Position numbers and translations under genes: made by a program. A stretch of DNA of 64,000 nt from Chroococcidiopsis thermalis PCC 7203 (GTDB lineage Bacteria > Cyanobacteriota > Cyanobacteriia > Cyanobacteriales > Chroococcidiopsidaceae): the NCBI RefSeq assembly GCF_000317125.1, contig NC_019695.1:3646336-3710335 (forward strand), written 5' to 3'. The stretch's first letter is position 1. Each line of letters starts with the position of its first letter. Below are positions 24,057 to 63,362 of this stretch, in pieces. The notes under the pieces are model-generated. The model had not been told where the DNA came from and did no database searches. It saw only the letters and a program-made list of their open reading frames with translations.

Positions 24057-24974
24057 TCAAATATAACTGCGAATCTCGACACGTTCGGTAGCGCGAGTGA
24101 GCGATCGAGCAGTAAGCACACCCATGAGGTGAGTGCGATACTCTGCCGAGACGTAGTTGTTAGAAAGGCTATTCAGTTCTTTGCTAGCTTCCTGGCTGAT
24201 AGACACGCTTTCTGTCGCCAGATTAGCCGCAGCCGCAATGTTTTTTGTTGTCGGTGCTTTGCCCTCCAGTGCTGCCTCGACCTGACGCAGACGGATAGCA
24301 CGAGCATGAGCGCCAGTAACAGCCACACGGCATTTACTCACAATACCGCTGGACGATCGCCTAATCGAGGTCGCAATGCCACAAATGGTATAGCCACTGG
24401 CTGGGTGCTGGAACTTTTCGTAGGCACTATTAGTTCCGGTAACATAGGGTGGCAGATCGATCGAAGTGACGATTTCACCAGGCTCCAGCCCCATATTGAA
24501 AGAGGCGTTGATGAACTCTTCAGCCGGAATCGCACGATGACTGCTTGGACTAATCGTGTTGAACGTTGCTTCTAGAACCAAAGCAGCGGCAGGTAGATCG
24601 CAGGCTAAGTCATGATAGGCAAAGATGTCACCGATTCTGCCCCAATTGCGGATCTGAGCATCTCCAATGCTCAACGCTGCTTCAGCCAGAGCGCGATAGT
24701 TTTCCTTGACCTTGAGAGCATTAGCGGTTTGGGCATAGGTAGTCATGACACCAATTTGGACGACACCGTTCGGATCGCGATTGAGTCCAATCCCTTGCAA
24801 ACCTTGAATTTTCCCTAAATCTACTAGTAGTAAGGGGGAAACTCGACCTAGCTTCATTTCTCTCAGTAAGCTGTGACCCCCGGCAAGAATCTCTGTTCCT
24901 TCGTTCTCTTTTAGCAGATTTACCGCAGCTTCCAGAGTTTCAGGTGCAGCGTAGTCAAATTCAACTGGAATCAT
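24057..24974 (-). CDS. xanthine-dehydrogenase/CO-dehydrogenase-like FAD subunit
   Basis: The 305-residue protein follows the CoxM/XdhB pattern (FDYAAPETLEAAVNLL, AGGHSLL at 31-37). The second FAD-binding motif, usually TIGG, reads RIGDIF at about 113-118, which may weaken or change flavin binding. It should carry electrons from a molybdenum centre through iron-sulfur clusters to an acceptor, but no [2Fe-2S] subunit is encoded nearby. The molybdopterin subunit lies 107 bases upstream on the same strand. Confidence 0.85.
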   Translation of the reverse strand: MIPVEFDYAAPETLEAAVNLLKENEGTEILAGGHSLLREMKLGRVSPLLLVDLGKIQGLQGIGLNRDPNGVVQIGVMTTYAQTANALKVKENYRALAEAALSIGDAQIRNWGRIGDIFAYHDLACDLPAAALVLEATFNTISPSSHRAIPAEEFINASFNMGLEPGEIVTSIDLPPYVTGTNSAYEKFQHPASGYTICGIATSIRRSSSGIVSKCRVAVTGAHARAIRLRQVEAALEGKAPTTKNIAAAANLATESVSISQEASKELNSLSNNYVSAEYRTHLMGVLTARSLTRATERVEIRSYI

Positions 24975-25081
24975 GTGACTTTATCCATTATCAGTTGTTC
25001 TGCGTTAGTAGAAAAAATCAAGTGGGAGTAGAGGAGCATTCTGTCCGTAACCCACAACTAACGATCTCGCGATCGCCCTAC

Positions 25082-30349: not shown

Positions 30350-31855
30350 TTAGTGAATATCTGCGATGATTCGATCCATACAGCGTTCTGCTAAAGCGGC
30401 GATCGTGTATGCAGGATTTGTACATCCTGTAGAGCCAGGAATCAGCGCACCATCGACGACATAAAGTCCTCGATAACCAGATACTTGCCCGTAGTCATCG
30501 CACGCTTTTCCTAGAACTGCTCCCCCCAGTGGATGGGCAGTGATAACGACATCAGTTTCAGGAGCGGGTCGGTTTGTGGTTGTGGGAGTATAAAATTTCA
30601 TTTCCGTCATGGGTGTTTTGGTAGAAATGGCATTTTTACTGTCAAGAGTTTTGTAGGTTTTTTCTGTATCTACCATGAGTTGAGTTTCTCGGGGATAGTG
30701 TAACTTGACAGAATCTGTAGACGCATCATACGTGAAGGTTCCACTTTGTGAGGGTAGACCTAAACCAAGACACTGTTGCGTTCCTTCAGGACTAGCCCAA
30801 TTTTCAAGATTTATCAGTACTATCGGGCGATCGAGGTCATCGAAGTTTTCTAACACTGCACCTGCGGGTCCTCCTTTACCAGATACAGGTGGTAAATTTG
30901 AACGAGTAGCAATGGTATCGCCATTAGAACTCCAAAATTTACCAACGTAGTCATTTAGTCTAGGTAATGAGCCTGTTGCTTTAGCTTTGACCAAAAGTTT
31001 AGAAGTTCCCATAGACCCAGCTGCTAAAAACAAATAGCGACAGCGAAAAGATTTTTGTTCGACAACCTCTCCTGATTCATTTATTTGATGACATGAAACC
31101 CGGTAACCAGCTTCAGGGGTTTCAGCAATCTCTACTGCTACATGTAGAGGAAGTATTTCTACGAAACCAGTTTTTTCTGCTTGGGATAAGTAATTGCGAT
31201 CCAAGCTTTTTTTAGCGCCGCTATTGATACCCCACCAATGGTCTCCGACAATAGTAGACTGTACTTTTGTTCCGTTAATTTCTTCCCGGACTATATTCCA
31301 ATCAACGGCTAATTCTAGTAGATGATTGCGGAATCCTGCTTGAGTAGCATGTTGAATAAATAGCCGCGTCGTATCATAGTAAATAGTATTTAAAATATCT
31401 GGAGGAATTGGCGAAGGCTGTAAAATTGAATGGACGCGAGGGTAATAAACTGTATCCATTTCATCATAACTAATCGAACCAGGAAAAACCTTCTGGAATA
31501 ACTCAGGAATGGGTTGATAAATAATACTGTTGTAAACTAATGACCCGCCGCCAACTCCAGCACCATTTAAAACAATAATTCCATCTTCAACTAAGGTTTC
31601 CATCACACCTGTGTGTACGTCGATTGGCTGTCCGAATATAGTTGCTGGACTAAGCCAAGCGGCTCGACCATCAGGATTATGGGGAGTAGCAAAAGTATTT
31701 TGGGCAGGCGTAATTTGCCAACGACGACCTCGCTCTAGCACTACTGTATTGATGCCTGCTTGTCCCAAGCGTAAAGCTGCAACGGCTCCACCAAAACCAC
31801 TACCGATAACAAGAGCTTCTACAGACTCATCATTTTTATGTAGTTTATGAACCAT
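30350..31855 (-). CDS. GMC-family (cholesterol-oxidase-like) FAD oxidoreductase
   Basis: The 501-residue protein starts with the FAD dinucleotide motif ALVIGSGFGGAVAALRLG. GAGVGGGSLVYNS is the flavin-contact loop, and the C-terminal catalytic region is AHPLGGAVLGKACDDYG with GYRGLYVVDGALIPGSTGCT. Relatives oxidise sterols, polyprenols or other alcohols using oxygen or another acceptor. No signal peptide is evident, so it appears cytoplasmic. The lack of an additional FAD subunit and the small size fit the bacterial cholesterol-oxidase branch. Confidence 0.88.
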   Translation of the reverse strand: MVHKLHKNDESVEALVIGSGFGGAVAALRLGQAGINTVVLERGRRWQITPAQNTFATPHNPDGRAAWLSPATIFGQPIDVHTGVMETLVEDGIIVLNGAGVGGGSLVYNSIIYQPIPELFQKVFPGSISYDEMDTVYYPRVHSILQPSPIPPDILNTIYYDTTRLFIQHATQAGFRNHLLELAVDWNIVREEINGTKVQSTIVGDHWWGINSGAKKSLDRNYLSQAEKTGFVEILPLHVAVEIAETPEAGYRVSCHQINESGEVVEQKSFRCRYLFLAAGSMGTSKLLVKAKATGSLPRLNDYVGKFWSSNGDTIATRSNLPPVSGKGGPAGAVLENFDDLDRPIVLINLENWASPEGTQQCLGLGLPSQSGTFTYDASTDSVKLHYPRETQLMVDTEKTYKTLDSKNAISTKTPMTEMKFYTPTTTNRPAPETDVVITAHPLGGAVLGKACDDYGQVSGYRGLYVVDGALIPGSTGCTNPAYTIAALAERCMDRIIADIH

Positions 31856-48043: not shown

Positions 48044-51000
48044 TTAATTAACTGCCCCCAACGCTTTCAGCGTCGCCACTGCCGCTTGGGTTAAACCTGT
48101 AACCCCTGTAATGTTCATGCGCTCGTAGAGTTTCTCAGCTCTCAGAGTTTTTACACACTCACCCGTTTTTATATCCCACAATCTTATTGTCTCATCCTCA
48201 CTACCGCTAGCCAAAATTGGGTTATCTCGACTCCATGCAACTGACCAGATCAAACCCGTATGTCCTAGCAAAGTTTTGAGACATTCACCAGTGCTGACAT
48301 CCCAGAGTTTGAGGGTGTAATCTTGACTGCTACTTGCTAGCGTTTGGCTGTCTGGACTAAAGGCAACTAATTGCAACCAACCCGTATCTACTTGTATTAT
48401 TCTTTTGCACTCACCAGTGCTGACACTCCATAATCTTAAGGTTCCGTCTGGACTGGTACTTGCTATCAGCTCACCATCTTGACTCCATGCAACCGACCAA
48501 ATCCAGTTCGTATGTCCTTCAAGTGTTTTAATACATTTATCGGTGCTAACATCCCACAGCTTGAGAGTCTGGTCTAAAGAGCCACTTGCTAGCATTCTCC
48601 CACACGGACTAAAAGCAACTGACCAAATTGCAGCACGATGCCCCTGAAAAGTTTTTAGAGCTTGACCAGTGCTGACATCCCACAACTTTATTGTTCGATC
48701 CTCGCTGCTACTTGCCAACATCTGACTGTCAGGACTCCACGCAATCGACCAGATTGCAGCCCCGTGTCCTTGGCAAATTCTCAAGGCTTGACCAGTGCCG
48801 ACATCCCATAATCGAACCGAGGAGTCTTGACTGCCACTGGCTAGCGTTTGACCATCGGGACTCCATGCAACTGACTGCACGGCAGCCCGATGTCCCTGAA
48901 AAGTTTTCAGAGTTTGACCAGTGCTAACATTCCACAATCGAACCGAAGAGTCGTGACTACCACTGGCTATAGTCTGCCCATCTGGACAAAAGGCAACCGA
49001 GAGTGTTTGATTGATATACCCTTGGAAAGTTTTGCAGCAGAAACCCGTATTAACATTCCATAGCCTTACCGTTTGGTCGCGACTACCACTGGCTAGGAAA
49101 TCGCCCTGTGGACTGAAAGCAATTGAAAATACCCAACTAGAATGTCCCTGGAAGGTTTTGCGGCATTCACCAGTGCTGACATCCCACAACTTGACTGTCT
49201 GGTCGAGACTGCCACTGGCTAGAAGATTGCCTTGCGGATTAAAAGCAACCGACCATACTCCATTAACATGTCCCTGGAAAGTTTTGAGGCATTGACCACT
49301 GCCGAGATCCCATAACTTTACTGTGCGGTCTTCACTGCCACTCGCCAGTGTTTGTCCATCAGGACTAAAGGTTATCAAGCGGATTGGATTAGTGTGTCCC
49401 TCAAAAGTTTTGAAACATTCACCAGTATTGATATTCCACAACCTGATAGTATTGTCAGCACTACCACTGGCTAGCATCTTTCCATCAGGACTGAAGACAA
49501 TCGAGACTACATGATTTGTATGTCCCTGGAAGATTTTAAGGCATTTACCATTGTGGACACTCCACAACCGAATCGAGAAGTCGTCACTGCCACTGGCTAA
49601 TATATTACCATCTGGACTCCATGCAACTGACCACACTTCATTCTCATGTCCTTGTAAGGTATGAAGGCATTGACCTGTGGCGATCTCCCACAACTTTACC
49701 TTGCTGTCGCTACTACCACTAGCAAGGGTACTGCCATCAGGACTAAAAGCAAGTGATGTAACCCAGTTATTATGTGCTTGACAGGTGAGGACTGGTTTGC
49801 CATCTGCAACTTGGTACAAGCGAATCTCGCCATTGCTATCGCCCATAGCCAAAAGTTTACCATCAGGGCTAAAAGCAACCGATGCAACACCACCAAAAGT
49901 TTCAGCAAAACTAGATTTAGCTAAATCGGCGTTTTGGAAATTGACATCGTGCAATTTCACCCGCTGTAGGTCTGCTTGCCAAACACTTAGGTTAGAAAAA
50001 TCATAGCCACTTAAGTCAGTTTCCAGATGACAAAGCAAATTGAGAATATTTCCTGCTGCATACCCAGGTTCTAATGGCGATCGCTCTTGCAGCGTTACTC
50101 TAATTTTATTTAGCTGCTTTTCTAGACTTTTTTTCGTTCTCAATATACTCAACAGGCGATCGCTAACTGGTTGAAGAATTAAGCGAATTTGAGTATCCTT
50201 AACATAGTCTTTGCCTTGAGCCTTCATCAGGGCATAGGAATTGAACAGAGTAATTTTTTCACTACAAATCTCCAAACAAACCTGAGCCACCAATCGCTCA
50301 GTTACATATTCCATGACTACAGGCTGGAGGGTGAAAAGCGCCTCAGTTTTTTCAATTAAACTTCGCCGTGACAGAGATTCTACAGCTTCTATAAATTTTG
50401 CTGGCGATACTGGCGTGACAAAATCCGATCGCAATTCTGACAGTGAAACTGGTTCTCGACTAATCGCTAGCCAGTAGACGATCGCCTGTTCTAAATCTAT
50501 TAACCGCTCAAACTGCTGCTCTAAAAGTTCGTGAATATCGCCAAAAACTACGGTATTGTGTTTCAAAAACTCCGAAACACTACCATCAAATACATCTTGA
50601 ATCGTCGTCGCCACTATTTTTAATGCTAAAGCATTCCCTGCATAGCGATCGACCAGTACTTCTAATTCTTCGATCGCTCCAGAAACCCCCTTAATTCTAA
50701 AGATTTTCTCCCCATCCGTCGCCTTCAGACCATTCAATGGAAGCGATCGCACGAGCAATCCTTTGCCTTCAAGCGGGACTAAATCTTTAGGTTTTTCCCG
50801 ACTTGTCAACAGCAAGCAGCTATTATGGGGAGTTTCTCCCACCCTTTTTAACAGTTCCCCATAACCTGCATATCCTTCCTGATATTGTCCGGCTCGACTA
50901 CCACTACACAAAATCGACTCGGCATTGTCGAGAATCAGCAAACAGCGAGACGATCGCAAGTAGAAAAGCAATCGCGATATTCTCTCACCAATGCTTTCTG

Positions 51001-51613
51001 ATAAATCTATTTCTTGCTCATCAGATAAAAATTGGATCGCTTGAGCCAAAACAGTCTCGACAGGTGGCGCGTCTCGTAGCGAAATCCACTGGACGTATTC
51101 AAACCGATCCTGAATTTGTGTTGCCAGCTTGACAGCCAGAGAAGTTTTACCAATTCCCCCCATGCCCAATAGTGCCACCACTCGGCAGCGATCTTTCAGC
51201 ACCCATTGCTCCAACTTGGCAATTTCTTCTATACGCCCGTAGAATACTGAAACGCAAATTGCTTCTTTGAGATCTTGTCGCTTAGGAGTAACCTGAACTT
51301 CTAGCGGCTCCTCCAAATTTTGGTTTGTGTTAACTTGGTTGGGGTTAACATAGTCGCTTTTTTGCAACTCTAGATTAAATGACATAAACAAGCTGACAAG
51401 CGTGCGCTTGTCAACTGCTTCTTTACAACTCATTACTCTTCCCAGAGTAACAGTCGTTAAACCCGTGCGATCGCTTAATTCTTCCAGCGTGAACTTGTTG
51501 CCAGCCTTCTCCAGTATTTCTAAAGCGAGTTTTGCTTGCTGAAACTTTTGCCATCCTTCACGAGTGAGAATAACACCTCGACTGCGTTTTGGTTTTAGCA
51601 AGTCCATAGACAA
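48044..51613 (-). CDS. NB-ARC STAND ATPase with 14 WD40 repeats
   Basis: Order: N-terminal HTH-like domain (1-90, [20 protein letters not shown]), NB-ARC with P-loop [12 protein letters not shown] near 150 and Walker [12 protein letters not shown], a winged-helix region, a short pentapeptide-like stretch ([17 protein letters not shown]) and 14 consecutive WD40 repeats of exactly 42 residues (about 575-1160), enough for two seven-bladed propellers. The C-terminus carries [20 protein letters not shown], shared with the next gene. STAND ATPases of this type switch on when the propeller binds a trigger and are linked to programmed cell death or defence. It is paralogous to the adjacent gene on the same strand. 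Confidence 0.88.
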
Positions 51614-51889
51614 ATCAAGTGTTTTTTTATACTCTTAGCCCTACTGGAATTTGCTGCTGTTTGGTTAGATTTAGACGAGTTGCATCCAGAAAAATTTCCG
51701 AAACTCGATGCAGATAGGTCTATTTGCACCAAGGTTCGGATTTTTAGAGACTTTTTCTCAATAATTCTAATGTATTTTTTGATAAAAATCTATTTATAGG
51801 TGGTAGACAAATTTGGGTTTTTAAGTAAAGCAAAGATTAACTAGGGAGACAAGTGCCGAGTTATCCATGCTTCACTCACCCCCTAGTGA

Positions 51890-54800
51890 CTATTCTTCTA
51901 GATGCTCAACTGCGCCTAAAGCTTTTAAAGAGGCGATCGCTGCTACTGTTAAACCTGTAACGCCAGTAACGTTCATGCCTTCGTAAGGCTTTTTACTCCT
52001 AAGAGTTCTGATGCACTCACCAGTCGAAATATCCCACAGCTTAACTGTCTCGTCTTCGCTACTACTAGCCAGAATTTTACCTTGAGGGCAGAATGCAACT
52101 GACCGAATCCAGTGAGTGTGTCCCTGAAAAGTTTTGACACACTCACCAGTGCTAACATTCCACAATTTGACAGTTGCGTCAGTGCTACCACTAGCCAACA
52201 GATTTGGGCTATCTCGACTGTTTGCCGCAGGTGCTTGCGCAGAGCAGGCAACTGATGTTACCCAACCTGTATGTCCCTCTAAAATTTTGAGACACTGACC
52301 AGTGCTAACATCCCATAATCTCACAGTTTTATCTTTACTGCCACTAGCCAAGATTCCCTCTTCGCCCCCCTTTTCAAGGGGGGTTGGGGGGATCGGTAAG
52401 AAAATCACTGACAATATCCAACCCGCGTGACCTTGGAGAATCTTGTCGCATTCGCCACTGCTACAATCCCACAACCATAATTTTTGGTCGTCGCAGCCAG
52501 TGGCTAAGATTTTACCTTGAGGACTAAAGGCAACAGACCACACTCCATGAGTATGTTCCAAAACATTCACGCATTGTCCAGTGCTAAGATTCCAGAGTCG
52601 CACTGTGCGATCGTCACTACCACTAGCTAAAACGTTTCCTTGAGGATTGAAGGTAATTGATTTTACCCGACTAGCATGACCTTCCAAAGTTTGGCAGCAT
52701 TGCCCATTGCTGGTATGCCAAATTTTTACTGTGCGATCGTCACAGCCACTAGCAAAAGTTTGTCCATCGGGACTAAAGGTAACTGTTCTGATCCAACCCG
52801 TATGTCCTTGCAAAGCTTTGCGACATTGACCAGTGCTGGTATCCCACAGCTTCACCTTCTGGTTATTGTCGCTAGTCGCTATAGTTTTACCATCGGGACT
52901 AAAGACTACCGACCAGACACCGTCGTGATATCCTCGTGCAGTTCTCAAGGCTTCTCCAGTACTAACATCCCATAACATAGCTGTTTGACCGTCACAGCTA
53001 CTGGCTAGAGTGTTACCATCGGGGCTAAAAGTAGTTGACTGAATTGCTCCAGTATGTCCTGACAAAACTTTGATACACTCACCAGTGACAGCACGCCACA
53101 ATCTAATGGTGCGATCGCTACTACTGCTAGCAAGAATTTGTCCATCTGGGCTATAGCATACTGACAACACCCAACCCGTATGTCCGTGCAAGGTTTGGCA
53201 ACATTTCCCAGTACTAACATCCCAAATTTTCACCGTGCGATCGTCACAACCACTGGCAAAAGTTTGTCCATCAGGACAGAAAGCAACTGTGCGGATACAA
53301 TCAGTATGCCCCTGTAAAGTTTGCACAATTCGACCAGTGTTGACATCCCAACAGCGAATCGTGCGATCTCTGCCACCACTGACCAAGATATGACCTTGAG
53401 GACTAAATGTGACTGAAAACACCCAGTCTGTATGTCCTTGCATTGTCCTAATACATTCACCAGTGCTGATATCCCACAACTTTACCGTGCGATCGTCGCT
53501 ACTACTAGCGATCGCATGACCTTGGGGACTAAATGCTACTGAGTGTATTCTTTCAGAATGCCCTTGCCAAGTTCTCAGACATTGACCAGTGCTGATATTC
53601 CATAATCTTAAAGTTTGGTCAGTACTAACACTCCCAATGAGTTCGCGATCGGGACAAAAGGCGATCGCTTGCACCCAATCTGTATGTCCTTGCAAGGTCA
53701 AAATTTGTTCGCCATCAATAAATTCTCGCCATAAGCAAATCTCGCCTCTAGCGTCACTCACAGCCACAACTTTACCATCGTAACTAAAGGCGATCGCGGA
53801 AATATTACTAAAGGATTTAGTAAATATAGATTTGGAGAGATCGGCGTAGGCGAAATTTACATTGTGTAAGGTGCGTTGGCGCAGATCGGCTTGCCAAATA
53901 TTCAGATGAGAAAAGTCATAATTCGTTAAATCTGTCTGGAGATAACAAAGTAGATTGAGCAGATTGCCCGCTGTATATCCCGCTTCGTGTGGAGACTCTA
54001 TTCTTAACTTAGCTAAAAGTTGAGATAGCCGTTGCTTAATCTGACTTTTGGTTCTAAAAATAGTCAGTAGTTCTTCTAGAATTGGCTCGATCAGACAGCT
54101 AATTTGAACAGCTTTTACCCGCTCTTGACTCTGTACTTTTAATAAAGCTATCTTTCTCAGAATGACAATCTTTTGATTGACTATTTCTGCACAAATCAAT
54201 CCAATCAATTGAGCCGTCACATACTCCATGACTACAGGCTGGAGGGTGAAAAGCGCCGCACTTTTCTCAACTAGCGATCGCCTCCTTAACGACTCCAAAG
54301 CCTCTAACAAGTTTGTCAATGTTAACTGAGAGAAAATATCATTTTGTAATTGCAATATCGAGACTGGTTCTCGATTGATGACTAGCCAATAGATTAACTC
54401 TTTCTCTATATCTGATAACCGTTCAACTTGTTGTTCTAAAAGTTCGCGTAGTTCGCCAAATACAATAGTAGTTTGTTGCAAGAATTCTAATATGCTGCCA
54501 TTAAAAATATCGCCAATAGTCGTAGCAATAATTTTTAATGCTAGTGGATTGCCTGCATAGCGCTCGGCTAATGTTTGCCATTCTTTGTCAGAACCGGAGA
54601 TTCCTTTGAGGCGAAAGATTTTTTCTACTTCTAACTTACTTAAACCACTCAGTTGTAGCGATCGAACAGGTAGTGCTTCTCCTTCTAATAAGGCTAATTC
54701 TTTAGGTTTTTCCCTACTAGTAAGCAGCACGCAGCTTTGATGGGGAACTTCTCCCAACCGTTTGAAAAGCTGACCGTAATCTTCACATCCCTGACAGTAG

Positions 54801-55510
54801 CGCCCAGTTTGAACGCCACATTGCATAATTGTTTCAGTGTTATCGAGTAATAGTAGACATCTGTATTTTTGTAAATAATCGATCAGTTGCGACAATCTCC
54901 GACTATTATTGTCTGGCAAAGCGGTTTCAACCTGTTGCTCGTTGGAGAAAAATTGCAGCAAGCTATCGAGAAGATCTTTGAGTGATGGAGCATTGGACAA
55001 AGATCTCCAAAGAAAAAACTCAAATTTATCCTTAACTTGTTCTGCTAACTTAGCAGCTAGAGTAGATTTACCAATGCCTCCCACACCCAACAGCGTTACG
55101 ACTCGGCAGCGACTTTCGATAATCCATTGCTCTAACGTGGCTAGTTCTGCCGCACGTCCGTAGAAGATGGATACATCAATCACATCCCCCCAGTCTTGAT
55201 GTGTAAATGCGATCGTGCATTCTGGTTGCTTTGCATCTAGGCTAGGCTGTGAATAGTCACTTGTATTCAGCTCTAAGTTAAATGCTGTGAATAAATTAAT
55301 TAGGGTTCGCTTGTCAACCCCTTCTTCACGAGTTAGTATTTTGGCGAGGGTAGCAGTTGTTAATTGAGTGCGTCCGCTTAATTCTTCTAGTGTAAATTTT
55401 TCCCCATACTTTTCATGAAACTCTAACTCTAGTTTTGCGTTCTGAAACTTTTGCCATCCTTCACGAGTTAAAACGATCCCTCGCTTACGCCTTAGCTTGT
55501 TTAAGTTCAT
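51890..55510 (-). CDS. NB-ARC STAND ATPase with 14 WD40 repeats, paralogue
   Basis: The same architecture as its neighbour: HTH-like domain ([19 protein letters not shown]), NB-ARC P-loop [17 protein letters not shown], Walker [13 protein letters not shown], a pentapeptide-like bridge, and 14 WD40 repeats. Repeats 12 and 13 carry extra residues at the same propeller loop ([14 protein letters not shown] and [13 protein letters not shown]), the first encoded by a dispersed palindromic repeat. The C-terminal motif [20 protein letters not shown] is conserved. A gene duplication with divergent propellers is evident: binding specificities probably differ while the switch is shared. It is transcribed toward the sister gene, 276 bases apart. 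Confidence 0.88.
52365..52397. repeat. palindromic dispersed repeat inserted in frame in a WD40 gene
   Basis: CCCCCCTT, TTC, AAGGGGGG, then TTGGGGGGATCGG. It resembles the repeat near 28,612. On the coding strand it supplies [13 protein letters not shown] in blade 12 without breaking the frame. Confidence 0.75.
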
Positions 55511-55956: not shown

Positions 55957-56928
55957 CTATTGATACACTTCAGGATTAACGCAATGTGGCAGACGATCGC
56001 CCCTAAGTCCAGCAACGAGATTGGCGATCGCCATGCTTGCCATTTTTTCTCGTGTCGGACGGCTGGCACTAGCAATATGAGGTGTAATCATCAGGTTATC
56101 CAACGTCAGCAACAAGCTTTGAGGCGCAATAGGTTCTGGATCGGTGACATCCAGAGCAGCGGCAGCGATTTGTCGCTCTTTCAGTGCTTGATACAAAGCC
56201 TCTGAGTCTACAATTTGTCCTCGTGCCGTGTTAATTAAAATTGCCGATCGCTTCATGCATTGAAATTGCGGCTGGCTAAAAAGATGGTAAGTATCTTCAG
56301 TCAAAGGAGCGTGAATCGTCACAAAATCTGACTCTTGCAGCAGGCGATCGAATGTCACGCACTCTGCACCGAGAGATTGTTCTATGTCCAAACGCTGTCG
56401 ATCTGCATACAAAATGCGCATGTCAAACCCTTTGGCACGGCGAGCTACGGCTTGACCGATCCGCCCCAAACCGACAATACCTAAAGTAGCTCCAGCAATA
56501 TTCGCTCCTAGCAACAAGTCCGGTTCCCAAGTCTGCCACTGACCCGCACGCACGAACCGATCTGCCTCCACAACTCGCCGTGCTGCTGTCATCAACAACG
56601 TCCAAGCAAAGTCTGCGGTCGCATCTGTCAAAACATCAGGCGTGTGACCTACGGGAAGATGTCTGGCAGTCGCAGTTGGGATGTCAATGTTATCGTAGCC
56701 AACTGCCATTTGGCTAATGACCTTGAGTGACGTTCCTGCCTCTATTAAGTGTCGATCGATCTGGTCGGTAAGCAGGCACAGCAAGCCATCGATCGCGCCG
56801 ATCTTTTCCAGTAACACGTCATCAGGAGGTGGTTGGCGCTCCGACCAAACTTCGACATCAGCAATTGGGTCAAGTCGATCTAAGGCGATCGGCAGGCGAC
56901 GAGTCACAAAAACTTTGAATTTGGACAT
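55957..56928 (-). CDS. D-2-hydroxyacid dehydrogenase
   Basis: 323 residues with the NAD-binding GIVGLGRIGQAVARRAKGF (about 145-165) and the catalytic trio: Arg in NTARGQIVD, Glu in DVTDPEP and His in TPHIAS. It belongs to the glyoxylate/hydroxypyruvate reductase group, some of which reduce 4-hydroxyphenylpyruvate. It is the last gene of a same-strand cluster headed by 4-hydroxyphenylpyruvate dioxygenase. A role in interconverting 4-hydroxyphenylpyruvate and 4-hydroxyphenyllactate is plausible but inferred from context only. Confidence 0.88.
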   Translation of the reverse strand: MSKFKVFVTRRLPIALDRLDPIADVEVWSERQPPPDDVLLEKIGAIDGLLCLLTDQIDRHLIEAGTSLKVISQMAVGYDNIDIPTATARHLPVGHTPDVLTDATADFAWTLLMTAARRVVEADRFVRAGQWQTWEPDLLLGANIAGATLGIVGLGRIGQAVARRAKGFDMRILYADRQRLDIEQSLGAECVTFDRLLQESDFVTIHAPLTEDTYHLFSQPQFQCMKRSAILINTARGQIVDSEALYQALKERQIAAAALDVTDPEPIAPQSLLLTLDNLMITPHIASASRPTREKMASMAIANLVAGLRGDRLPHCVNPEVYQ

Positions 56929-56991
56929 ATGGCAATCTCAGTCATTCATAAGATTAGCGCGATATGGTTGTCATTCGTCATTGGTCATTAG

Positions 56992-59106
56992 TCATTTGTT
57001 AAATACGCTTGTGCTAGAAGCCCGATCGCGCAATGCACGTCGCATCACTTTATTTGAGGCAGTACGAGGTAAAGCATCAACGATCGCCAGATCGTAAATC
57101 TTGAACAGGGGATTGAGCTGCGAAGCGATCGCCTTTTGTAACTGGGTTTTGAGCGTTGCTTTGTCCTGCTGTCGATCTGGTGCAACCACCGCAAAAATGA
57201 CCAACTGGCTAGGACCCCCTTCTGGAGGAGAGACAGCGATCGCGGCAGTTTGATAAATTCCTGCTACAGAATTGAGGACTTGCTCGATTTCCACCGCGCT
57301 GACCTTGATGCCTCCCAAATTCATCGTGTCATCAACGCGACCGCAAGCGCGATAATACCCATTGGGGAGATGTTCGATCCAATCTCCATGACGGCGCAGG
57401 GAGAGTAGAGGCGGGTTTACTTGGGGGGTAACTGGTTGATTCGGGAATTGGTCTGATAAACCCGCCCTGACAGCAGACGGAAGAGAGGGGGTATCGGCGA
57501 AATAGACGTGGTGATGGTCTTTGTTGAGTAATGTGGTAGAAAGTCCGATGGAAGGGGGGATAATAAACAACTCGCCTTTGTTGGTAGGGCGATCGCCTTC
57601 GAGAATAATAAAATCTAATCCTAATGCAGGGGTTGTGAAAGTTGCAGGAGCCGCAGGCTGTACCAGCGTGCCAGTGATATAGGCTCCACCAATCTCAGTC
57701 CCACCACAGTATTCGATAATCGGCTTGTATCCTGCTAGAGACATCAAAAACAGCATGTCCTGTGGATTGGAACATTCACCCGTCGAGCTGAATGCTTTAA
57801 TCGCACTCCAATCCAGCCCTTGCATACAAGCAGTTGTTTTCCAAATGCTGACTAGACTTGGTACTACCCCCAACATATTCACCCGTGCCGCTTGAATAAA
57901 TTGACCGAATCCTCTCTCGGTGGGTGCGTCGTAGTAGAGAGCAATAGTTGCCCGATTAATTAAACTGGCATAAATCAGCCAAGGTCCCATCATCCAGCCT
58001 AGATTGGTTGACCAGGCTACGACATCTCCAGGGTGAATATCTTGGTGCAAGTGTCCGTCAACTGCACATTTGAGCGGTGTTGTTTGAGTCCAAGGAATAG
58101 CTTTGGGTTCTCCCGTAGTGCCAGAGGAAAATAAGATATTAGTATAAGCTTCCGATGCGGTGGCTAGGGCATCGAATCGTTCGTTTGAGCTGAGAAATTT
58201 CTGCCAAGCTAAATCGCCAGAACGCAGTGTTCCAGACACGGAAATATCGAGCGACAGCACGACTGCTTTAGGGGCATCGGCATCGATAACTTTGGTATAA
58301 AGGGGTAACTGTTTGCTACCACGCTGAATATAGTCTTGGGTAAAAATTGCCTTTGCCTGAGTTATACGCAATCTGACGGCGATCTCGTTGGCAGCAAAAC
58401 TATCGGCGATAGAAACCACCACGCAGCCAGCTTTAATAATTCCCAGGTAAATCGCTACAGATTCCGCAGTCATGGGCATGGCGATCGCGATCGCATCGCC
58501 AGGACGGAAGCCCCAGTCCACAAGCCCATTAGCAACTCGGTTGCTCAAGGCGTGCAGCTCTCCATAGGTCATGGTGGAAAGCACGCCGTCCTGTTGAAAG
58601 ACGATTGCGGGAGAATTTTCAGGCGCTTGAAAACAGCTCTCAACAATGTTGAAACGAGCATTTACCAGCCATTGAGGAAATTCTACCCCCCGCGAAAGAT
58701 CGACAATTTGAGTGTACTTCTGCCGGAAACGAATACCCAATCGTTGAATCGTCATCTCCCAGAACCGATCCCGATTCTGCACCGACCAAGCATGAAATTC
58801 TCGATAGGAGGCAATTTGCAACTGATGCATTAAAGCAGCGATATTGGTAGACTCAATTTCTTCTTGAGAGGGAAACCAAGCTGGAGCAGGTTTCTGGGAT
58901 GCGTCCCAGTCGGAGAAGGTAGTTTCGTAAAGGAGTTCGTGCAATGCAAAGGGGCAATCGGGCTTGAGGATGTGACGAGTTAGCTGCTGCCAACACTCCA
59001 CAGCAGGTAAGGCAGCCAGCCACCGCTCGACTTGCGGTAGAATTGCGATCGCTGTCTGTCGATCGACTCCACAGTTTACTATTTGCTCCAACGATAATTG
59101 CTTCAC
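56992..59106 (-). CDS. acyl-CoA synthetase-like AMP-binding enzyme
   Basis: The 704-residue ANL enzyme has the acetyl-CoA synthetase-type N-terminus (HAWSVQNRDRFWEMTIQRLG), AMP-binding P-loop ILFSSGTTGEPKAIPW, CGGTEIGGAYITG, the GRVDDTMNLGGIKVSAVEIE hinge and the C-terminal PRTASNKVMRRAL with the catalytic Lys. It starts at a GTG behind GGAGGTGAACG. It resembles plant AAE17/18-type or acetoacetyl-CoA-synthetase-like proteins. It would activate a short-chain or aromatic acid made in the cluster; acetoacetate is one candidate because homogentisate cleavage ultimately yields it. Substrate unproven. Confidence 0.87.
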   Translation of the reverse strand: MKQLSLEQIVNCGVDRQTAIAILPQVERWLAALPAVECWQQLTRHILKPDCPFALHELLYETTFSDWDASQKPAPAWFPSQEEIESTNIAALMHQLQIASYREFHAWSVQNRDRFWEMTIQRLGIRFRQKYTQIVDLSRGVEFPQWLVNARFNIVESCFQAPENSPAIVFQQDGVLSTMTYGELHALSNRVANGLVDWGFRPGDAIAIAMPMTAESVAIYLGIIKAGCVVVSIADSFAANEIAVRLRITQAKAIFTQDYIQRGSKQLPLYTKVIDADAPKAVVLSLDISVSGTLRSGDLAWQKFLSSNERFDALATASEAYTNILFSSGTTGEPKAIPWTQTTPLKCAVDGHLHQDIHPGDVVAWSTNLGWMMGPWLIYASLINRATIALYYDAPTERGFGQFIQAARVNMLGVVPSLVSIWKTTACMQGLDWSAIKAFSSTGECSNPQDMLFLMSLAGYKPIIEYCGGTEIGGAYITGTLVQPAAPATFTTPALGLDFIILEGDRPTNKGELFIIPPSIGLSTTLLNKDHHHVYFADTPSLPSAVRAGLSDQFPNQPVTPQVNPPLLSLRRHGDWIEHLPNGYYRACGRVDDTMNLGGIKVSAVEIEQVLNSVAGIYQTAAIAVSPPEGGPSQLVIFAVVAPDRQQDKATLKTQLQKAIASQLNPLFKIYDLAIVDALPRTASNKVMRRALRDRASSTSVFNK

Positions 59107-59124
59107 CGTTCACCTCCTGCCTTC

Positions 59125-59997
59125 TCATGCAGTACCTAACAGGGCGATGACTCCAAATGCCGTACCTATACGTTCCCAGAAGTTAAATCTTTGGTAAGCG
59201 CTCTCGCTACGTTGCTGTTGGTAGTGCGCCAGCGCCATTCCCAGACTCAATAAAGCGATCGCCGAGAACGTGGCAAATAACAGGGGACGTGCCATCGATA
59301 AGAGGCGAAGTGCCACAGGTATAGAACCCATCAACACCCCCAGCAAACCCCAAGCGATCGCGAAAGCCACTCGATCTCCCCACCGATTTGCAACTGTGAC
59401 AATCCCTTGAATGCGATCGCCTTCCGCATCATGCACGTCCCAGACAATTTCTTTAGCCAAGGCATAGCAGAATAAAAACCCCATTGGATAAAGCATTGCC
59501 AATGGTCGGCAGGCAACCAAACTACCCAGAAAAATCAAAGCCGCAATAGTTGCAGCTACAAGTAGATTGCCAAAAATACCATTGTATGATAAAAGATGCG
59601 AATAATTCCAGAGCAAAACAGTACTAATAGCAACCAGAACAAAGGGAGACAAACCTAAAGGGATAGCAGCGATCGCGGCACAGCCGAACAGAATTGCCGC
59701 AGCCCACCAAGCTTGTTGCAATGAAAGCCGACCGGAAGGCAAAGGGCGATCGGGATGACTGATGCGGTCTTTAGCTAAATCCCAGTAGTCATTGATGCCG
59801 CAAGCAGCAGAGGTTATGCAGACTAAGATAATTGCCGTCAGCAGGTATTGCGGTAGTGCAACTGTGGCATCGAGAGCATAGATTGTGGCACAGCCTGCTA
59901 AAGCTGCGAGGATACCAGCTGGCAGCCGAAAAAGCTGAACAAAGGCTCGGATCGAGCTTATCGTGCCAATATAGGGAAAGGAAAGCGTGCTAGCCAT
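59125..59997 (-). CDS. UbiA-family prenyltransferase
   Basis: 290 residues, about eight transmembrane helices. The first Asp-rich motif is INDYWDLAKDRISHPDRPLP and the second DVHDAEGDRIQGI; both are needed to bind a prenyl diphosphate through Mg2+. The pattern is closer to the NDxxD…DRPLPSG group than to known homogentisate phytyl/solanesyl transferases (whose motif is NQxxDxxID…NKPxLP). It lies 18 bases upstream of the ligase and likely attaches an isoprenoid to a cluster product or lipid. Confidence 0.9.
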   Translation of the reverse strand: MASTLSFPYIGTISSIRAFVQLFRLPAGILAALAGCATIYALDATVALPQYLLTAIILVCITSAACGINDYWDLAKDRISHPDRPLPSGRLSLQQAWWAAAILFGCAAIAAIPLGLSPFVLVAISTVLLWNYSHLLSYNGIFGNLLVAATIAALIFLGSLVACRPLAMLYPMGFLFCYALAKEIVWDVHDAEGDRIQGIVTVANRWGDRVAFAIAWGLLGVLMGSIPVALRLLSMARPLLFATFSAIALLSLGMALAHYQQQRSESAYQRFNFWERIGTAFGVIALLGTA

Positions 59998-60030
59998 AAT
60001 TGATAAGTCGTACGTAAGTCGAGAATTAAC

Positions 60031-60074
60031 TGGTCACTGGTCACTGGTCACTGGTCACTGGTCACTGGTCACTG
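60031..60074. repeat. six tandem TGGTCAC heptamers
   Basis: A perfect six-copy heptamer array. It overlaps the 3' end of the HDO-like gene and supplies its last codons (SVTSDQ then stop). Length variation here would alter the protein tail. Confidence 0.85.
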
Positions 60075-60966
60075 AATTCAGTCCGTCCCAAAAGACAGCG
60101 ATCGCATCGAGAATTTCTCGACCACCTTGGATAAATTTGGTGCGATCGAAGTCTGGTTTGAAATAAACTTCCTCCAGTTCCTCCAGCGTGTGTCCGGCGT
60201 GTTGCGCTTCGACACGGTTGTGCCAGGTGAAAAACGCGAGGCGCAAGTGCGGGTGTCGCGTTTGCTTGATGCGCGTTAAGCCATCTTCTAGTTCTTGCCA
60301 AAAGCCAGCCGCCGCCCAGTTTTCGACTGCAAAGCTAGCACCCTCAGCGATCTGCGGATCGGCGCTACCGTAGAGGCGGATTAATTCATCGCAGAAGTGC
60401 AAAGTTGTCGGACTACCCTGCTTGCGCTTACCAATGTCGCCATAGCTCAGACCTAACCCCTCAGCAACACCAACTAGCCACTCAAAATGAGCTGCTTGAA
60501 AACGGCAAATTCCACCGTCTACTGTACCCTCAGTGCTGACCAGTTCAGGATCGCCTTCGCGGTCTTTTTCTGCACTCTGGGTAACGCGGCTACTACCTGT
60601 CTGTCCTAGCTTGCGATAGATTACGCCTAGCTCGTTGAGCAAAATTTCTCGGCTAGCACGCGATTGTTGCAACGTCGCTGAATTAATGACTTTTTGTAAA
60701 GCTGCAATCAAAAATTGGTTAGAAAAAACTGAAAACTGTTGAATAAAGTAGACTAGCTCCTCATCTGTAGCCCTACCCTCGCGAAACCAACGGGTATAGG
60801 CGTTATTAGTAATGATGCGGTGCTGCATGAATTCGCGATCGACTTCGACCAGAAAATCTCTAAACTCGTCTACTCGATCCTGAGTCAGTTCGCCTTGGCG
60901 CAAGCGTTCCTCAATCCGCGCAGAAATAGTTAATCTACTTGAAGATGTTGTCAAAAGAGAAGTCAT
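60055..60966 (-). CDS. haem-oxygenase-like diiron oxidase (HDO) family protein
   Basis: 303 residues, mostly helical. The motif H249-x3-E253-x2-H256, preceded by E215 34 residues earlier, fits CADD/UndA-like diiron sites; an earlier E112 is a further candidate ligand, with a roughly 30-residue charged insertion (120-150) between. The ATG follows TAGGAGTAATAAATT. The last residues (SVTSDQ) are encoded by heptamer repeats. It lies between hmgA and the prenyltransferase gene on the same strand, so it likely oxidises an aromatic or fatty intermediate in that route. Catalytic activity and substrate are unknown. Confidence 0.72.
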   Translation of the reverse strand: MTSLLTTSSSRLTISARIEERLRQGELTQDRVDEFRDFLVEVDREFMQHRIITNNAYTRWFREGRATDEELVYFIQQFSVFSNQFLIAALQKVINSATLQQSRASREILLNELGVIYRKLGQTGSSRVTQSAEKDREGDPELVSTEGTVDGGICRFQAAHFEWLVGVAEGLGLSYGDIGKRKQGSPTTLHFCDELIRLYGSADPQIAEGASFAVENWAAAGFWQELEDGLTRIKQTRHPHLRLAFFTWHNRVEAQHAGHTLEELEEVYFKPDFDRTKFIQGGREILDAIAVFWDGLNSVTSDQ

Positions 60967-61005
60967 AATTTATTACTCCTAACGGTAATGGAGCTTTTGA
61001 GTAGA

Positions 61006-61060
61006 GGGGACAAGGAGGACAAGGAGGACAAGGAGGACAAGGAGGACAAGGGGGACAAGG
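61006..61060. repeat. tandem GGACAAGGA nonamers
   Basis: Six units between the HDO and hmgA genes. They are the complement of the CCTTGTCCC-type units at 4,290-4,405, so the two arrays belong to one repeat family. Confidence 0.8.
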
Positions 61061-61090
61061 AAGCAGTTACGAATGATCGATGACCAATGA

Positions 61091-62251
61091 CTAATGATTA
61101 ACCCAACTATACGAATAGTCTTTGTCCTCAAATTTAAGAGCGTGCTGTGTCAACTTCAGCGGACGAAAGGTATCGATCATCACAGCGAGTTCGTCAGTCC
61201 GTTCTTTTCCAATTGACCCCTCGTACATGCCTGGGTGAGGACCGTGGGGAATACCCCTGGGATGAACGGTAATCGATGCCCGTTCAATTCCTTTACGCGA
61301 CATAAATTTCCCCTCAACGTAGTAAATCACCTCATCTGAATCGACGTTGGAATGGTTGTATGGAGCCGGAATTGCTAAAGGGTGATAATCAAACAGACGC
61401 GGTACAAAGGAACACAAAACAAATCCGGGGGCTTCAAATGTTTGATGTACTGGAGGCGGTTGGTGAACCCGACCTGTAATTGGCTCAAAGTCTTCGATGT
61501 TGAAGGCAAAGGGCCAAAGATGCCCATCCCATCCCACAACATCTAAGGGATGATGGTGGTAGAGATAGCTAGTAATCTGGTTTCCAGCTTTGACTCGAAC
61601 CTCAAATTCTCCTTCCTCATCGTGGACGATTAGTTGGTTTGGCGGACGAATATCGCGCTCGCAGTAGGGGGAGTGTTCGAGAAATTGACCGTAGCGATTG
61701 AGATAACGTGCTGGTGGCTCGATGTGTCCGTAAGCTTCTACAACCAACATGCGCTGCTCGACTGCTGCATCAGGGAGGATACGCCAAAGAACTCCCGTGG
61801 GAATTACCAAGTAATCGCCACGTCGGTAGAAGAGATTGCCAAACTGAGTTTCTAGTATGCCGCTCCCGTCATGGATGAAAATGACTTCATCGCCGCAGGC
61901 GAACCGATACCAATAGTGCATGGGTCGTGTCGGGCAAGCGACTGATATGCAAATCTCTGAATTTGCCATCAAGGGGATGCGCGATTCCACAGCATCGCCT
62001 TTCGCTGTCATATTTGCCGTGCGTAGGTGGCGGTGATGCAAGGGGCTTTGGTCTTCGTAGGGAATTTCTACGTTGCCCTCGATCCAAATTTTCTGAATTT
62101 GCGTGGGTGGATGCAGGTGGTAGAGCAAAGATTGCACGCCTGAGAAGCCACGAAGCCCGATCGATTCTTCGTGATACAGAGAGCCATTTAGTTGACGAAA
62201 TTGAGTGTGTCGTTTGTGAGGAATGTTCCCCAAATAGTAGTAATAAGTCAT
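61091..62251 (-). CDS. hmgA: homogentisate 1,2-dioxygenase-like protein
   Basis: The 386-residue cupin has the homogentisate dioxygenase pattern: YHHHPLDVVGWDGHLWPFAF, YNHSNVDSDEVIYYVEGKF and HPRGIPHGPHPG, which supply iron ligands (His and an acidic residue, then His). It lies four bases after hppD and would open the ring of homogentisate, giving maleylacetoacetate. Isomerase and fumarylacetoacetase genes are not in the window. The smaller size than the 430-residue plant/human enzyme is usual for this bacterial branch. Confidence 0.87.
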   Translation of the reverse strand: MTYYYYLGNIPHKRHTQFRQLNGSLYHEESIGLRGFSGVQSLLYHLHPPTQIQKIWIEGNVEIPYEDQSPLHHRHLRTANMTAKGDAVESRIPLMANSEICISVACPTRPMHYWYRFACGDEVIFIHDGSGILETQFGNLFYRRGDYLVIPTGVLWRILPDAAVEQRMLVVEAYGHIEPPARYLNRYGQFLEHSPYCERDIRPPNQLIVHDEEGEFEVRVKAGNQITSYLYHHHPLDVVGWDGHLWPFAFNIEDFEPITGRVHQPPPVHQTFEAPGFVLCSFVPRLFDYHPLAIPAPYNHSNVDSDEVIYYVEGKFMSRKGIERASITVHPRGIPHGPHPGMYEGSIGKERTDELAVMIDTFRPLKLTQHALKFEDKDYSYSWVNH

Positions 62252-62255
62252 GGTT

Positions 62256-63362
62256 TCACACCGTGGCGATCGCCAAATTGCCTCTCAACGTTTGCTCGCG
62301 TTCGATCGCGACAAACAAGGATTTGAAATTCCCCTCACCGAAGCCTTGCGCTCCGTGTCGCTCAATGACCTCAAAGAACAGCGTCGGTCGGTCTTGTACT
62401 GGCTGGGTAAAAATTTGGAATAAATACCCATCTTCTTCTCGATCTACTAAGATGCCCAACTCGGCTAGCCGCTCGATTGGCTCCTCGATTTTTCCTACTC
62501 GCTCCTCTAAGTTTTCGTAGTACGTTTTTGGTGTCGAGAGAAACTCAACTCCTGCTGCCCGCATCTGAGTGACTGTCTCGACGATGCTGTCGGTCGCGCA
62601 GGCAACGTGTTGAATTCCGGCTCCGTGGTAATATTCCAAGTACTCTTCAATTTGAGATTTACCCTTGCCTAAAGCTGGTTCGTTAATGGGTAATTTAATC
62701 GTACCCGTGCTGTCCTGCATTACTTTGGACATTAAGGCTGAGTACTCAGTAGAAATAGCGCGATCGTCAAAATGTATTAATAGGTTAAAGCCCATCGTCT
62801 CAGCAAAAAACTGCGTCCACCTCTCCATTGCCCCTAGTTCTACATTTGCAACTACGTGGTCGATGGTTTTCAGTCCCACTCCTTTGCGGTTGGCATGTAG
62901 ATTCCGAGGTTCAAAACCAGGAGCAAAAACACCTGCATAATTACTGCGATCGACGAACTCGATTAAGGTATCGCCATAAGCATGAATCGCACTGTAGCGT
63001 AACACTCCATAATTATCTTGTGCTTCCGTCGGGGCGATCGCTCCCACCGCACCTCGTCGAGTTGTTTCTTGATAGGCGCTAACAACATCAGGGACTTCTA
63101 AAGCAATAATGGCAATTCCGTCGCCGTGTTTGAGTACGCTTTTAGAGATGGGATGTTCTGGATGCAGTCCCGTACTCAAAACAAAGCGAATATCCCCTTG
63201 CTCTAGTACGTATGAGGCAGTGGCGCGACTATTAGTCTCTAGTCCTCGATAGGCAGCGATCGTGAATCCAAAACACTTGGAATAAAATAGTGCTGCCTGC
63301 CTTGCGTTCCCAACATAGAACTCAAGGTGGTCAAATCGCTTAATCGGGCAAAAATCGCTCAT
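62256..63362 (-). CDS. hppD: 4-hydroxyphenylpyruvate dioxygenase
   Basis: From the ATG behind GGAGAAATC the protein has 368 residues. Two VOC domains are visible; iron ligands occur as His in KTIDHVVANVE, His in GIQHVACATDS and Glu in LFFEVIERHGAQG. The product is homogentisate, precursor of tocopherol and of the catabolic route. It leads the cluster, with hmgA four bases downstream, so the two enzymes acting in sequence are translated together. In cyanobacteria hppD is usually alone or with tocopherol genes. Confidence 0.92.
   Translation of the reverse strand: MSDFCPIKRFDHLEFYVGNARQAALFYSKCFGFTIAAYRGLETNSRATASYVLEQGDIRFVLSTGLHPEHPISKSVLKHGDGIAIIALEVPDVVSAYQETTRRGAVGAIAPTEAQDNYGVLRYSAIHAYGDTLIEFVDRSNYAGVFAPGFEPRNLHANRKGVGLKTIDHVVANVELGAMERWTQFFAETMGFNLLIHFDDRAISTEYSALMSKVMQDSTGTIKLPINEPALGKGKSQIEEYLEYYHGAGIQHVACATDSIVETVTQMRAAGVEFLSTPKTYYENLEERVGKIEEPIERLAELGILVDREEDGYLFQIFTQPVQDRPTLFFEVIERHGAQGFGEGNFKSLFVAIEREQTLRGNLAIATV

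Follow-up and report, generated by a model that had tools for sequence, protein, structure and literature searches.

The window analysed here, 64,000 nt of Chroococcidiopsis thermalis PCC 7203 (NC_019695.1, positions 3,646,336-3,710,335; genome G000 in our catalogue), contains a cluster of six minus-strand genes that very probably serves the catabolism of aromatic amino acids through homogentisate. The cluster encodes 4-hydroxyphenylpyruvate dioxygenase (HPPD), a protein resembling homogentisate 1,2-dioxygenase (HmgA), a putative heme oxygenase-like dimetal oxidase (HDO), a UbiA-family prenyltransferase, an adenosine monophosphate (AMP)-forming acyl-coenzyme A (CoA) ligase, and a D-2-hydroxyacid dehydrogenase. 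The explanation that we favor overall is that these genes form the core of an aromatic amino acid catabolic pathway in which the HDO would act as a phenylalanine hydroxylase and HcpX, an uncharacterised protein of about 290 residues encoded outside the window, as the isomerase. We put the probability of this explanation at roughly 0.55; this value, like the other gradings of confidence given below, is a judgement and was not computed. Taken by itself, the assignment of the HDO as the 4-hydroxylase of phenylalanine (or phenylpyruvate), which draws on the gene context, appears somewhat better than an even bet.

Conservation of the cluster

A search with the HDO sequence, which reaches close relatives only, yielded 74 loci that were compared together with flanks of at most 10 kb. 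The first-pass annotation of this DNA had offered the neighborhood of the HDO as a check on the cluster, and the grouping was borne out: HPPD and HmgA both accompany the HDO in 64 of the 74 loci, which argues against a chance association. These 64 loci span cyanobacteria, planctomycetes, gamma- and deltaproteobacteria, SAR324, and others, with taxon labels that may err, as many are metagenome bins. Two loci at contig ends (L074 and L080) have HPPD without HmgA, and eight have neither gene; one of the eight (L045) begins 322 bases before the HDO. Five of the genomes behind the other seven carry HPPD elsewhere. HPPD was not found in the genomes G320 and G321, whose completeness is not stated; an HDO without a detected HPPD is a situation in which an entry enzyme could occur.

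Forty-five loci were labelled cyanobacterial by catalogued taxon and similarity, including one catalogued under another phylum (L037), and the counts per gene refer to these; eight further loci (L103-L110) were left out, of which L106 is probably the same as L032. HPPD and HmgA are each present in 44/45 loci, HcpX in 36/45, the ligase in 34/45, and fumarylacetoacetase (FAH) in 30/45. Less frequent are an Lrp/AsnC regulator (17/45), an aminotransferase (8/45), a thiolase and an indoleamine dioxygenase (7/45 each), the dehydrogenase (5/45, four of these with the aminotransferase), and UbiA (2/45). Threonine-type genes, a label read from the sequence with no family scan, occur in 7/45. The indoleamine dioxygenase, thiolase, FAH, and Lrp/AsnC assignments are family matches of representatives, and the aminotransferase was assigned by NCBIfam below the subfamily cut-offs. 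All six of these kinds of neighbor (indoleamine dioxygenase, thiolase, FAH, Lrp/AsnC regulator, aminotransferase, and threonine-type genes) fit amino acid catabolism. Together with the ligase, the FAH, thiolase, aminotransferase, and regulator counts also favor one of the two options raised in the first-pass annotation, a salvage route for homogentisate in which acetoacetate is activated.

Among the 291 genomes of the cyanobacterial order, HDO and HmgA are each found in 21 and together in 19 genomes. HmgA occurs without HDO in G042 and G203, and HDO without HmgA in G173 and G283 (a contig end and a 73-residue match). Fisher values for co-occurrence within the order are 1e-25 and below; they ignore kinship.

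HPPD and the HmgA-like protein

The hppD gene (62256-63362) is firmly predicted by its curated family (TIGR01263, 427 vs 277 bits; PDB 1t47, E 7e-114). Its open frame extends to 63419, with 63362 as the likely start. A second HPPD is encoded in the same genome (G000:C1:1625873-1627006; 33% identity to the cluster HPPD) and is perhaps the tocopherol enzyme; because of this second copy, the HPPD of the cluster looks like a dedicated one.

The adjoining gene (61091-62251) probably encodes a short and divergent form of homogentisate 1,2-dioxygenase. The protein passes PF20510 (30 vs 20.2 bits), and human homogentisate dioxygenase (HGD, 1ey2) aligns with it at E 7.7e-8. Removal of stop-containing translations and duplicates reduced the HmgA rows from 114 to 77, of which those longer than 350 residues were kept (75 plus the window sequence). 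H300, E307, and H336 are invariant in 76/76 rows and align with positions of HGD that we take to be its iron ligands His, Glu, and His. Judging from the gene context, the protein likely cleaves homogentisate.

Fold and invariant residues of the HDO

The third gene (60055-60966) encodes the candidate pterin-independent phenylalanine 4-hydroxylase, so designated from its predicted fold, invariant residues, and gene context. At E<=0.001 the protein matches no Pfam family, hence no pterin hydroxylase domain (PF00351). PF14518 scores 17.6 bits (gathering score 28.9; E 0.0035) and matches 16 of 25 HDO members at E<=1. There is also a weak family match to BesC (E 0.0014, 18.1 bits vs a cut-off of 500).

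The AlphaFold2 model has a pLDDT of 81.3 and a pTM of 0.79, with residues 119-143 mostly below 50. Its best Foldseek matches are CADD (E 5e-5), PqqC, UndA (E 4e-4), TenA, and BesC (E 1e-3). TM-scores by target are 0.67-0.78 for the best chain each of CADD, PqqC, UndA, and BesC, and the 11 structural matches at E<=0.001 have 10-15% identity to the HDO. The model thus places the protein in the heme oxygenase-like helical fold class, which TenA and PqqC, enzymes that are not dimetal enzymes, match too. For the alignment, 122 HDO rows were reduced to 84 by removing stop-containing translations and duplicates, and those longer than 260 residues were kept (81 plus the window sequence). E107, E112, H160, E162, E215, H249, E253, H256, and H259 are invariant in 82/82 rows, numerous enough for a candidate ligand set of three His and three to four carboxylates.

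HDO and the pterin-dependent phenylalanine hydroxylase

PF00351, the family of the pterin-dependent phenylalanine hydroxylase (PAH), was found in none of the 48 HDO genomes searched (47 from the 74 loci plus C. thermalis, where the search detected no PAH). To compare the two enzymes outside the cyanobacteria, we used 185 gammaproteobacterial genomes from the class of G331 (L094). PF00351 is present in 32 of them, HDO in five, and HPPD over its cut-off in 30. HPPD matches exist in 42 genomes, of which only the 30 over the curated cut-off were counted, so that G406, which has PAH and a sub-cut-off HPPD, is left out. Among the 30 HPPD genomes, PF00351 occurs in 0/5 with HDO vs 20/25 without (one-sided Fisher p 0.0018, uncorrected for kinship).

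The two enzymes also occupy similar surroundings. Seven loci (L144-L147, L092, L094, and L098) have the order HPPD-HmgA-FAH-MaiA-HDO, where MaiA is the classical maleylacetoacetate isomerase; in L158 the order is PAH-HPPD-HmgA-FAH-MaiA. Regions around PAH were fetched from 31 of the 32 PAH genomes, and seven contain a homogentisate gene, which is HPPD or FAH in six. A gene of the Lrp/AsnC type stands beside the HDO in L083-L085, L087, and L088 and beside PAH in L153, L162, and L163.

Removal of stop-containing translations and duplicates reduced the HPPD rows from 107 to 87. In an HPPD phylogeny, one clade (0.947) unites the eight gammaproteobacteria whose HDO lies at the HPPD locus, and its sister is of the PAH type (0.951). 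The HPPD of G334, which has HDO and no PF00351, falls outside this clade and groups with L223 (0.726), leaving room for a second replacement. In the HDO phylogeny, which lacks two of the intended sequences, the gammaproteobacterial HDO groups with those of L091 and L093 (1.0), whose HPPD sits in the other main HPPD clade. The two genes thus have different histories, and the HDO moved separately.

The lower pathway and HcpX

The first-pass annotation noted that neither maleylacetoacetate isomerase nor FAH is encoded in the window, and considered that both might lie elsewhere. The first statement is correct for the cluster itself, and the second proved right for the hydrolase: FAH is firmly predicted about 1.3 Mb from the cluster (G000:C1:2402252; TIGR01266, 552.9 vs 375.3 bits). 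No conventional isomerase was found over the cut-off, the best match to TIGR01262 (MaiA, glutathione transferase type) in the genome reaching 80.6 vs 171.05 bits.

In this genome, FAH directly follows HcpX (L186:7880-10149, equal to G000:C1:2400879-2403149), and both genes are found near hppD in 30/45 cyanobacterial loci. HcpX is present in 21 of the 291 genomes of the order (in G217 as a 41-residue fragment), 20 of them among the 21 genomes with HmgA; the sole HmgA genome without it is G203, in which HmgA is fragmentary as well. HcpX matches neither a Pfam nor an NCBIfam family at E<=0.01, and it has no sequence relative in the PDB better than E 0.36. Its model (pLDDT 93.9) alternates strands and helices and has no PDB match at E<=0.001, only weak and mixed ones. 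In L191 (the genome of L086, labelled Krumholzibacteriia), a 44-residue piece of HcpX also follows HmgA where the contig ends.

MaiA over its cut-off was found in 6/31 genomes, two gammaproteobacteria and four genomes from the class to which one of these belongs, and in none of the ten cyanobacteria tested, which makes HcpX a candidate for the isomerase. The cyanobacteria do have weaker glutathione transferase matches, which in principle could catalyse the isomerisation. From position and co-occurrence, we give even odds to HcpX being the maleylacetoacetate isomerase.

The HDO was considered for this step as well and rejected: gammaproteobacterial HDO operons carry MaiA, and isomerisation does not require oxygen. 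A protein with a flavin-reductase domain (PF01613; one representative scanned) is encoded near HmgA or FAH in L070, L093, L095, L101, and L189. The four of these genomes that the MaiA search covered (all but that of L070) have no MaiA or one below the cut-off. The protein could be a reductase for the HDO or another substitute for the isomerase.

Remaining genes of the cluster and its surroundings

The list of open reading frames agrees with the first-pass description of the cluster, with all six genes on the minus strand, the start of hppD at 63362, and gaps of 4 bp between hppD and the hmgA-like gene and of 18 bp between the genes for UbiA and the ligase. The ligase (56992-59106) is probably an acetoacetyl-CoA synthetase; its best models are PRK03584 (acetoacetate--CoA ligase, 239.8 vs 639 bits) and AcsA (221.1 bits, cut-off 724.95), and TIGR01217 gives 188 vs 520.9 bits. 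The dehydrogenase (55957-56928) is above the cut-offs of PF02826 and PF00389, scores 400.4 bits against a glyoxylate reductase model (NF009714, cut-off 455), and is possibly an aromatic 2-oxoacid reductase.

The UbiA-family prenyltransferase (59125-59997; PF01040 passed with 129.9 bits) appears to be accessory. It keeps two aspartate-rich motifs, which we take to be the functional motifs of the family, and it misses the homogentisate phytyltransferase model NF009525 (47.6 bits, cut-off 226). Among the loci examined, UbiA was seen in the window, in two genomes of the same genus and one of its family (G148, G186, and G161), and in L082 and L029; L200 has a piece of 98 residues. The gene lies after the HDO in L029 and between HDO and ligase in the other five, in which UbiA is found at one locus and on one strand with the dehydrogenase. 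The copy in L029 (L029:10995-11828) has one in-frame stop, indicating a decayed gene or an assembly error.

Upstream of hppD, the genome has a two-component system followed by pqqB and pqqC. The latter two (L102:3870-5522), a few kb past the end of the window, are both over curated cut-offs, and PqqC is of the same fold class as the HDO. FAH or an Lrp/AsnC regulator, frequent directly upstream of hppD in relatives, was not found at that position in C. thermalis; another genome from the genus retains a 43-residue Lrp/AsnC match (60% identity) upstream of hppD (L104:5386-5514). Beside the cluster, two large adjoining open reading frames occupy 48044-55510, of which 48044-51613 contains WD40 repeats and 51890-55510 resembles it by reading of the sequence alone. 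Elsewhere in the window are FAD-binding and large subunits of a molybdopterin hydroxylase of the CO dehydrogenase/xanthine dehydrogenase type (24057-27472; NCBIfam matches below cut-offs), a GMC-type oxidoreductase (30350-31855), and a Tn3-family transposase (19116-22070; PF01526).

Proposed pathway and alternatives

Our proposal builds on the observed gene content, conservation, co-occurrence, and fold class of the HDO, to which we add putative activities and substrates for the HDO, HcpX, the HmgA-like protein, the ligase, UbiA, and the dehydrogenase. The HDO, as a putative dinuclear-iron, pterin-independent enzyme, would 4-hydroxylate phenylalanine or possibly phenylpyruvate, and an aminotransferase would give rise to 4-hydroxyphenylpyruvate. 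HPPD would convert the latter to homogentisate, whose ring the HmgA-like enzyme would open to maleylacetoacetate. HcpX would isomerise this compound to fumarylacetoacetate, FAH would release fumarate and acetoacetate, and the AMP-forming ligase and a thiolase would take acetoacetate to acetyl-CoA.

Several observations weigh against this proposal. In the HDO, the invariant H249-x3-E253-x2-H256 aligns with a His/Glu/His set of BesC in an alignment that is not significant (E 0.88). The distance from E107 to H160 is 53 residues, part of which is modelled with low confidence, unlike the close spacing in known HDOs; we read a three-strand stretch that the model places between two invariant positions as an insertion. 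The HmgA-like protein misses the equivalog model TIGR01015 by far (53.9 vs 510.75 bits). Its position 242 is Asp in 72/76 rows, His in 3/76, and Gln in 1/76, and the aligned residue of HGD is a His, which we take to be the catalytic His of the WHGN segment. The ligase falls short of the curated cut-offs, acetoacetate- and acetate-CoA ligases being its nearest models.

Further points concern the replacement of PAH. In the cyanobacterial order PF00351 occurs in 6/291 genomes, none of them among the 21 with HDO (Fisher p 1.0), and is too rare for the order to provide a test. The contrast among the gammaproteobacteria reflects mostly one replacement event, given the single HPPD clade, and its p value overstates the evidence. 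No homogentisate gene was found in 24 of the 31 PAH regions, some on short contigs, and the HDO is divergent from the operon in L096 and encoded elsewhere in L097. Five sampled HPPD genomes have neither PAH nor HDO, and G042 contains HPPD, HcpX, FAH, and HmgA without HDO or PF00351. The lower pathway consequently does not need the HDO, and tyrosine by itself can feed the pathway. In addition, the accessible part of the 2026 review of HDOs (PMC13108848) describes no ring hydroxylation by an HDO.

Within a catabolic cluster, the HDO may carry out a different oxidation, for example that of tyrosine or of a phenyl acid leading into homogentisate, or a BesC-like C-C cleavage. The HDO reactions named in the accessible part of PMC13108848 (N-oxygenation, C-C cleavage, desaturation, and rearrangement) and the weak BesC match agree with this alternative, as does the fact that in the order the HDO tracks HmgA (19/21) more closely than an optional entry enzyme need. 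We consider it somewhat unlikely, since HDO and PF00351 are mutually exclusive among the sampled gammaproteobacterial HPPD genomes and share an operon context, and since G042 retains the later steps without the HDO, making the enzyme dispensable below tyrosine. A rather improbable addition, compatible with the explanation that we favor, is a side branch through UbiA and the dehydrogenase that would have been added in this lineage and would draw off homogentisate or 4-hydroxyphenylpyruvate; the shared strand and locus of the two genes in the window, G148, G186, G161, and L082 are consistent with it, but UbiA or the dehydrogenase may have no role in the operon beyond being inserted there. The other option of the first-pass annotation, a cluster that makes a prenylated aromatic compound or a polyketide-like one, has the intact UbiA motifs of the window copy and the six UbiA-bearing HDO loci in its favor but is very improbable and was rejected as the main explanation, as the proposed neighborhood check found UbiA at only 2/45 cyanobacterial loci (the UbiA subtype itself was not searched genome-wide), the L029 copy carries a stop, the phytyltransferase model is missed, and the neighbors include indoleamine dioxygenase, aminotransferase, and Lrp/AsnC genes.

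Under the catabolic explanation with the HDO as phenylalanine hydroxylase, the surprise lies less in the gene set itself than in two possible unrecognised replacements, the HDO and, outside the window, HcpX. We only tentatively suggest that both substitute for textbook steps of phenylalanine and tyrosine breakdown in cyanobacteria, as a pterin-free HDO hydroxylase that is also found in other phyla and an isomerase that is not a glutathione transferase. If the HDO hydroxylates phenylalanine, it would represent a new way of making tyrosine from phenylalanine and, to our knowledge, the first aromatic ring hydroxylation in its superfamily. It would also explain phenylalanine degradation without the pterin enzyme in HDO-bearing cyanobacteria, planctomycetes, and proteobacteria. 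In cyanobacteria, HcpX would supply the isomerisation for which an enzyme is missing.

Comparison with known systems

According to the accessible part of PMC13108848, the HDO superfamily comprises more than 10,000 sequences, of which about a dozen are characterised, and its reactions are mainly on fatty acids and amino acids. A term search of the accessible part of PMC13185094 gave no match. Among the matches listed, titles and abstract openings, which leave most subscription papers uncovered, did not connect any HDO with homogentisate or with the hydroxylation of phenylalanine.

The cluster resembles the homogentisate pathway (PhhA, HPPD, HmgA, MaiA, and FAH) in its HPPD, in the HmgA-type iron-ligand positions, in the FAH encoded in the genome, and in the aminotransferase and regulator at the loci of relatives. 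It differs in that the HDO genomes searched lack PF00351 and the ten cyanobacteria lack MaiA over the cut-off, with HDO and HcpX present instead, and in its divergent HmgA-like protein. With the pterin-dependent phenylalanine 4-hydroxylase, the HDO would share the same step, and homogentisate neighbors are found in 7/31 PAH regions; however, the two belong to unrelated families and never occur in one genome in the samples examined. With the heme oxygenase-like dimetal oxidases CADD, UndA, BesC, and HrmI, the HDO shares the fold type, as judged by Foldseek, and it has an invariant His/Glu set with an H-x3-E-x2-H motif. The proposed phenylalanine hydroxylation is absent from the reactions in the accessible part of PMC13108848, and, in contrast to CADD, UndA, BesC, and HrmI, the HDO of this cluster is linked to primary amino acid catabolism.

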